Assembly: GCA_018105865.1 (NCBI GenBank)
Contig: CM030841.1
Span: 14,141,682 to 14,205,681, forward strand
Reading direction: 5' to 3'
From: Metaphire vulgaris
Lineage: Eukaryota; Annelida; Clitellata; Crassiclitellata; Megascolecidae
DNA: 64,000 bases
Below, piece by piece: positions 28,229-62,244 of the stretch. The notes beneath the pieces were generated by a model, which was not told the origin of the DNA, ran no database searches, and worked only from the letters and a program-made list of their open reading frames with translations. The position numbers were made by a program, and so were the translations under genes. How positions within the stretch are numbered: position 1 is the stretch's first letter; every line of letters begins with the position of its first letter.

Positions 28229-28311
28229 TCACTTGTATTCTGCTGCTGGCAACGTTGGTATGTCTTCTTCACCAATTAACTCCCATTCATCATCATGACC
28301 TTCCTGAACTC
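28229..28311 (-). CDS. Ankyrin last exon (C-terminus and stop)
   Basis: 83 nt, acceptor TCATCATAG. Read in the phase-1 frame it gives [20 protein letters not shown] then PAAEYK and TGA at 28229-28231. The other two frames stop within about 12 codons. Acidic with a lone Trp. No known motif assigned. Confidence 0.75.

Positions 28312-62244: not shown

Follow-up and report, generated by a model that had tools for sequence, protein, structure and literature searches.

Evidence for a giant ankyrin gene whose long exons follow the death domain and whose distal motif resembles those of arthropod giant ankyrins

In nerve cells, ankyrin links the membrane to the internal skeleton, and axons are organised by giant ankyrins in flies, worms and vertebrates. 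The locus described here raises two questions: whether the very long open frames that lie behind a set of ankyrin domains belong to the same gene as those domains, and, if they do, where such a tail came from. An earlier note had proposed a lineage-specific giant ankyrin in which the ZU5-C, UPA and death-domain exons are followed, rather than interrupted, by three long exons that add a tail of roughly 5,200-5,500 residues. The window (the whole 64-kb stretch of DNA that was analysed) was searched for genes, domains and repeats, and is best explained as a whole as holding the 3' part of an animal ankyrin gene, including the exons of its giant isoform, a reading that is very probably correct.

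Gene structure and reading frames

The gene model, built from genomic sequence, consists of nine exons on the minus strand between 62.24 and 28.23 kb, which join in phase and total 17,024 nt (Table 1). The introns between all nine exons are of the GT...AG type. The first two junctions are in phases 2 and 0, and each of the remaining six, beginning with that between UPA and death domain, is in phase 1. The exon with the end of the second ZU5 domain (ZU5-C) is the first ankyrin exon located within the window, and can be aligned with the ankyrins of nine other proteins. The window thus contains the end of ZU5-C and the whole UPA of the ZU5-ZU5-UPA cassette, with a death domain after the UPA; the first ZU5, the rest of the second and the ankyrin repeats would lie upstream, beyond the 64 kb. 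Residues 1-294 of the translation, which comprise the ZU5C-UPA-death domain part, matched PDB 4d8o (ankyrin-2) at 1e-88.

Table 1. Positions of the ankyrin exons, repeats and motifs within the window
Feature	Position	Strand	Evidence
Exon, end of second ZU5 domain (ZU5-C)	62148..62244	-	AG/GT borders; phase fits next exon
Exon, start of UPA	61635..61863	-	Pfam UPA_2 1.4e-20; splice borders
Exon, remainder of UPA and linker	60298..60601	-	Pfam UPA_2 5.6e-25; splice borders
Death-domain exon	59362..59697	-	Pfam Death 2e-6
Small exon, 57 residues, from death domain to long exon 1	54857..55027	-	Open frame, AG/GT borders, phase
Long exon 1, 9,575 nt	44155..53729	-	AG before, GT behind; eight frame changes as assembled
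Putative second, weaker LIR-like site, long exon 1	52933..52971	-	Short pattern
Repeat array, about 12 units of about 175 residues, long exon 1	45089..51594	-	14 profile matches, two units split
Long exon 2, 3,171 nt	35770..38940	-	AG before, GT behind; single open frame
Four more units of the long exon 1 repeat, long exon 2	36668..38458	-	Profile matches
Long exon 3, 3,058 nt	29157..32214	-	AG before, GT behind; one frame change
Three SSLxEFExLE motifs	31140-31087, 31005-30952, 30831-30787	-	29.4, 20.1 and 12.5 bits, arthropod profile
Three (S/T)(S/T)DSL(D/E/Q) motifs	29734..29937	-	Downstream of EFE motifs, as in chelicerates and some crustaceans examined
Terminal coding exon, 83 nt, with stop	28229..28311	-	Acceptor, phase 1, stop
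Putative Atg8-binding (LIR)-like motif, terminal exon	28259..28294	-	Pattern: acidic, W-x-x-(V/L/I), acidic stretch

A phase-1 intron of about 600 bases separates the UPA exon from the death-domain exon and contains no giant exon; the vertebrate placement of the giant exon was not found here. Three exons of more than 3 kb lie in phase downstream of the death domain in the gene model, and the order proposed earlier, with the domain exons followed and not interrupted by the long exons, was confirmed. The reading of the gene as a giant ankyrin whose long exons come behind the death domain was likewise upheld, both by the Pfam and PDB domains and by the in-phase junctions. The sequence behind the death-domain exon amounts to 16,058 nt including the stop, or about 5,350 residues, which falls within the range first estimated. 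The long exons of the three-exon tail stood, and the exon set proved incomplete: a small exon ahead of long exon 1 and a short terminal coding exon were also found. The small exon is in phase 1 at both ends and displayed no homologue; it is probably part of the gene. The donor of long exon 3 (29156) was picked from eight phase-1 GT sites because it gave the best fit and an in-phase join to the last exon.

Stop-to-stop frames reached 1,235, 857 and 766 codons in long exon 1, 1,101 in long exon 2 and 1,001 in long exon 3. Frames of 1,235, 1,101 and 1,001 codons are expected by chance about 1e-34, 1e-30 and 1e-27 times in the window, so chance can be excluded as the source of such uninterrupted frames; in random sequence of the same make-up the expectation for all five is about 2e-20 or less. 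As assembled, long exon 2 is a single open frame and the other two are not: long exon 1 changes frame eight times (seven times between about 50.19 and 48.97 kb and once near 46.44 kb) and long exon 3 once (near 31.89 kb). Since the repeat pattern of exon 1 resumes past the breaks, the frame changes were read as indels rather than introns, and local assembly errors are their most likely source. The frame pieces were joined with X and were chosen to be open; with the frames followed in this way there is no internal stop over about 5,300 codons.

Nine frame changes could also mean that the tail is decaying, in which case they would be genuine and this animal, or this allele, would have lost the giant isoform. 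This is improbable: seven of the nine fall within about 1.2 kb, several sit in short A or T runs, the absence of internal stops extends over about 5,300 codons (even though open pieces were picked), and the repeats of exon 1 persist beyond the breaks, all of which fits local assembly error better than decay. Nine frame breaks in one assembly are a warning that giant tails can be hard to annotate.

The region could alternatively contain two genes: an ankyrin of normal size, terminating a short way past the death domain, and an independent gene further downstream to which the long exons belong. There is a stop shortly past the donor of the death-domain exon, the intron that follows contains AATAAA sites, and a LINE lies inside it, behind the death domain. 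On the other side, the small exon and the three long exons all join in phase 1 with GT-AG borders, and a single protein chain of the tick Ixodes scapularis (P0025) carries ankyrin repeats, ZU5, UPA and death domain together with the motif found in long exon 3. A separate gene is disfavoured because the junctions are in phase and because exon 3 is like the distal tails of arthropod giant ankyrins, and two genes are considered very improbable. Within a single gene, short isoforms may exist besides the giant one.

The LINE-type retrotransposon (55942-59057) lies on the gene's strand in the intron between the death domain and the tail; endonuclease and reverse transcriptase were recognised by Pfam, and its frames are interrupted. 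AATAAA sites within it could terminate short transcripts.

Composition and repeats of the tail

Serine and glutamate make up 25.8% of the tail, and about 25% has been given for the long exons of ankyrins in the excerpted text of a survey by Jegla et al. 2016 (PMC5135030). The sum of S, E, T, D, K and P is 51, 46 and 53% in long exons 1 to 3, where the criterion for the class is >55%.

About 16 repeats of about 175 residues are spread across long exons 1 and 2. A profile search started from a single seed gave 16 matches on its first pass and 18 after iteration, 14 of them in exon 1 and four in exon 2. The arrays of the two exons match each other at 2.8e-26, and a further match, at 2e-5, links the end of exon 1 to a stretch behind the exon 2 repeats. 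The order of array and end piece is therefore the same in both exons, which suggests from the sequence that long exon 2 is a partial copy of long exon 1. Nothing significant was found between exon 3 and exons 1 or 2 (best comparison 0.20).

The surveyed genes mostly had one long exon, eight of the 23 with long exons had two, and their repeats measured 36-228 bp (PMC5135030, in part); there are three long exons here. Aplysia, Branchiostoma and Lytechinus ankyrins, compared by description, also have more than one long exon, and the two of Branchiostoma are duplicates (PMC5135030, in part). The Drosophila isoforms Ank2-L and Ank2-XL have long exons after the death domain as well, and Ank2-XL, again by description, contains 93 copies of a 76-residue repeat (PMC5135030, in part), compared with the about 16 longer units in two exons in this gene. 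In C. elegans, the neuronal UNC-44 AO13, also compared by description, has its giant extension after the death domain, with STEP repeats.

Long exon 3 and the tails of arthropod giant ankyrins

The excerpted survey covered 36 bilaterian ankyrins and found long exons in 23, and it describes long exons placed behind the death domain as widespread in protostomes and present in several echinoderms (Jegla et al. 2016, PMC5135030). The term 'lineage-specific' used earlier consequently has to be dropped, and the gene belongs to a giant ankyrin type already known from many animals. The same text argues for a single bilaterian origin of the long exons and reports no detectable homology among those of Drosophila, C. 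elegans and sea urchin (PMC5135030, in part). Because long exons of distant phyla have no detectable homology, a single origin rests on indirect evidence. No later survey was among the titles listed in the literature searched. The vertebrate giants, ankyrin-B 440 and ankyrin-G 480, share the possession of a giant insert with this gene but carry it before the death domain.

Relatives were sought in two protein searches of the model, from which the best 120 of 2,655 and the best 120 of 1,668 matches were listed. The listed BLAST matches cover 4-10% of the query, consistent with the ZU5-UPA-death domain part. The lophotrochozoans among them were Octopus (2,012 aa) and Sinanodonta (2,093 and 2,220 aa), and no echinoderms, near relatives or Drosophila Ank2-XL proteins were among the matches listed. 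Giant ankyrin-2 proteins of arthropods (4,876 aa in I. scapularis P0025; also Portunus, Homarus, Argiope and others) share the architecture of this gene, in which a tail thousands of residues long comes behind ZU5, UPA and death domain.

A search of the tail against invertebrate ankyrins, suggested earlier as a check, showed that exon 3 resembles the distal tails of the arthropod proteins and that the start of exon 1 has no significant likeness. When exon 3 and the last exon were compared by phmmer with the best 120 of the 2,655 proteins, Ixodes P0025 matched at 4.2e-7 and the next protein at 0.88. The likeness centres on SSLxEFExLE near the C-terminus, which occurs at similar spacing in the arthropod giants. 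A profile built from the motif windows of 18 arthropod proteins gave the model 29.4, 20.1 and 12.5 bits, compared with a best score of 7.4 in 1,000 shuffled tails. SLxEFExLE has three copies in the tail and occurs in 2 of 5,000 shuffles.

Among the matches listed, SLxEFEx(L/I)(E/D) was found in 79 of the 92 proteins of at least 3,900 aa. These 79 were arthropod (23 species by name, with many isoforms) and the other 13 were vertebrate, so that none of the 13 vertebrate proteins of that length listed had the motif. It was also absent from all 70 shorter proteins listed, including shorter arthropod ones and that of Priapulus (3,806 aa). The motif pair is present in giant isoforms from D. santomea, D. 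yakuba and Lucilia; in the D. santomea protein (4,484 aa) it lies at residues 4109 and 4163. Successive copies are 45 and 55 residues apart in the model and 43-54 in the arthropods measured. The motifs lie 681-581 residues from the C-terminus in the model, 760-604 in chelicerates and crustaceans, and about 380-322 in two flies.

The order of motifs is shared as well. S/TDSLE follows the EFE motifs in chelicerates and several crustaceans, as it does here, and was present in 10 of 12 chelicerate or crustacean giants of at least 4,800 aa with the EFE motif (P0017, P0019, P0020, P0021, P0025, P0026, P0029, P0041, P0052, P0072, P0078 and P0085), the exceptions being the crustaceans P0052 and P0078. 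It was absent from the fly giants P0054 and P0081 and from Lucilia P0080. Shuffling exon 3 plus the last exon 5,000 times never produced three or more S/TDSLE motifs.

Profiles of whole tails gave a mixed result. One built from seven chelicerate tails matched residues 4982-5051 of the model at 1.5e-8 and none of 300 shuffles, and matched Drosophila at 1.1e-9. The model was not among the matches of a profile of seven crustacean tails or of the combined profile of 14, and the combined profile run against the model alone gave an E-value of 1. The EFE module alone was searched against 5.8 billion proteins, where 1,794 candidates were scored and none reached E <=10. The sole match of the EFE stretch in Pfam was Hmw_CFAP97 at 0.13, below the cut-off, and the letters of the motif were not found in the literature searched. 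Elsewhere in the tail the arthropod giants differ from this gene: neither the stretch behind the death domain nor the opening part of long exon 1 shows significant likeness, and the C-termini inspected do not resemble the last exon.

The sharing of SSLxEFExLE suggests, at the level of sequence, common descent of the post-death-domain tails, even though two of the three whole-tail profiles miss the model. Short motifs could instead have arisen by convergence in acidic, serine-rich disordered sequence. The motif is short and has no match at database scale, it came to light in a comparison of the model with a single tick protein and so was not chosen blindly, and the failure of two of the three arthropod tail profiles also fits this explanation. 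However, the scores far exceed those of the 1,000 shuffles, three copies of SLxEFExLE stand against its presence in 2 of 5,000 shuffles, and the motif is repeated at like spacing, ahead of S/TDSLE and, flies excepted, at a like distance from the C-terminus. Convergence is thus rather unlikely.

The motifs would say little about deep origin if the source animal were itself an arthropod or a close relative of arthropods. ZU5C-UPA identity of the model to three arthropods was 68-71%, and 71% to Priapulus, 69% to Octopus, 63% to Sinanodonta and 62% to a frog, compared with 74-80% among the three arthropods themselves. In a tree of 21 rows, the ten arthropod rows grouped without the model (97/97), which was also outside the molluscs (100/99) and stood next to the vertebrates, a weakly supported position (86/87) that came with a long-branch warning. 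By the AU test, groupings with arthropods (p 0.134) and with molluscs (p 0.153) are not rejected, and one with Priapulus is marginal (p 0.047). Given the lower identity to arthropods than among them and the grouping of the arthropod rows, an arthropod source is distinctly unlikely.

We lean slightly towards the view that post-death-domain tails go back to a single ancestral long exon, the distal part of which can still be recognised as an EFE pair about 45-55 residues apart followed by S/TDSLE, about 600-750 residues from the C-terminus (less in flies). If this is true, it provides a sequence-level argument for a single origin, which so far has been based on position, composition and phylogeny, and it names a candidate binding site for testing. 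With the motif pair in a matching relative position in the present animal and in arthropods, the origin becomes testable by sequence, and the pair is a small experimental target toward a shared partner of the tail. The gene differs from those described in the excerpted text of PMC5135030 by its three long exons and its repeats of about 525 bp, and its distal module is a homology of the sort that the survey lacked.

Two other likenesses were followed in the tail. A 'DVSYDE' resemblance at the start of long exon 1, behind the death domain, to arthropod and mollusc LDVSYDEQD had been seen by eye and was rejected, as it did not rise above shuffles: with a profile from 13 proteins and 500 shuffles, the top rows were two flies and shuffles, and the model was not among them. 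Behind the repeats of long exon 2 (model residues 4330-4450) there are stretches of the type DG(S/R)(V/M)V(K/I)R(K), whose likeness to the C-termini of ankyrins from vertebrates, ticks and molluscs is of borderline significance. A VTRKIIRR stretch in exon 2 that is like vertebrate C-termini, compared with vertebrate VTRKIIRRYVSSDG and Ixodes TRTIRTVCPDG, scored 4.3 bits and ranked first of 1,001 (best shuffle 3.5), but the likeness was lost in a wider profile and nothing was found with an arthropod profile. By phmmer, the end of exon 2 matched two Sinanodonta proteins (0.004 and 0.005) and Eriocheir (0.008) among the 120 listed proteins; the best of 60 shuffled queries reached 0.0044, so these matches are borderline.

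Putative Atg8-binding sites and a proposed role for the tail

The terminal exon contains a site resembling the Atg8-binding peptide of ankyrin-B, EEEWVIVSDEEI (PMC7803741, seen in part). The excerpted source gives the peptide as VEEEWVIVSDEEIEEARQKAPLEITEY and locates it in the AnkB insert (PMC7803741). The extended LIR pattern of the terminal exon was found in 1 of 20,000 tail shuffles, the pattern having been written after the sequence was viewed. The short pattern, on which the second site in long exon 1 depends, has at least one match in 12% of shuffles, so that site is not significant by itself. Long exon 1 contains, in its first 1.6 kb (about 52.1-53.7 kb, minus strand), several short stretches of acidic-aromatic-x-x-V, perhaps repeated weak Atg8-type sites.

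The LIR pattern finds the AnkB-type peptide in 3 of the 13 vertebrate proteins scanned, and none of the arthropod C-termini inspected had the pattern of the terminal exon. A loose form of the pattern, with F for W, occurs in two crayfish, Cherax and Procambarus, about 850 residues from their ends. The terminal exon had no match in PDB. In the vertebrate ankyrin the LIR peptide is near residue 1,600, in the insert before the death domain, and here the site is in the last exon. It is possible that the last exon and vertebrate AnkB share a LIR function. A stronger form of the common-descent view, that the last exon keeps an Atg8-binding function as in the vertebrate giants, is likewise possible.

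In the ankyrin family, the ankyrin repeats bind membrane proteins and ZU5-UPA binds spectrin (PMC5135030, in part). Giant tails reach microtubules by three routes in the excerpted account of PMC7159925: fly Ank2 binds directly, mammalian AnkG acts through EB proteins, and worm UNC-44 acts through UNC-119, which binds the UNC-44 C-terminus and bridges to UNC-33/CRMP.

By analogy with these giant ankyrins, a neuronal or axonal role may be proposed for the present gene. As elsewhere among giant ankyrins, the upstream ankyrin repeats would hold membrane proteins and the ZU5-UPA part would hold spectrin; the acidic tail, long and probably disordered, would reach inward to the axonal microtubule system. 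The repeat array of exons 1 and 2 could act as a spacer of adjustable length that grew by internal duplication, including the partial copying of exon 1. Long exon 3, with its paired SSLxEFExLE followed by S/TDSLE, would be an old effector module from a common ancestor with the arthropod giants and would form the contact part of the tail; the likeliest kind of partner is an adaptor or a microtubule-linking protein. The last exon may bind Atg8/GABARAP proteins. We know of no binding site common to the giant tails.

The window had no Rfam or tRNA matches in its 64 kb. Two frames on the plus strand (2431-2799 and 33410-33688) have KVPKSRY(V/I)IYGRPL in common and are probably copies of one interspersed repeat. 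Many long, perfect trinucleotide arrays (AAT, AGT, TCA and TAA) of up to 43 copies lie at 32566-32720, 34752-34830, 43950-44027, 55226-55355 and elsewhere. A second gene is represented by two exons of CFAP91 (cilia- and flagella-associated protein 91) at 14292-15592 and 19634-19921 on the plus strand, opposite to the ankyrin gene and converging with it; they matched Pfam CFAP91 at 1.1e-11 and 4e-14, and CFAP91 chains in PDB at 1.7e-18 and 3.6e-12.
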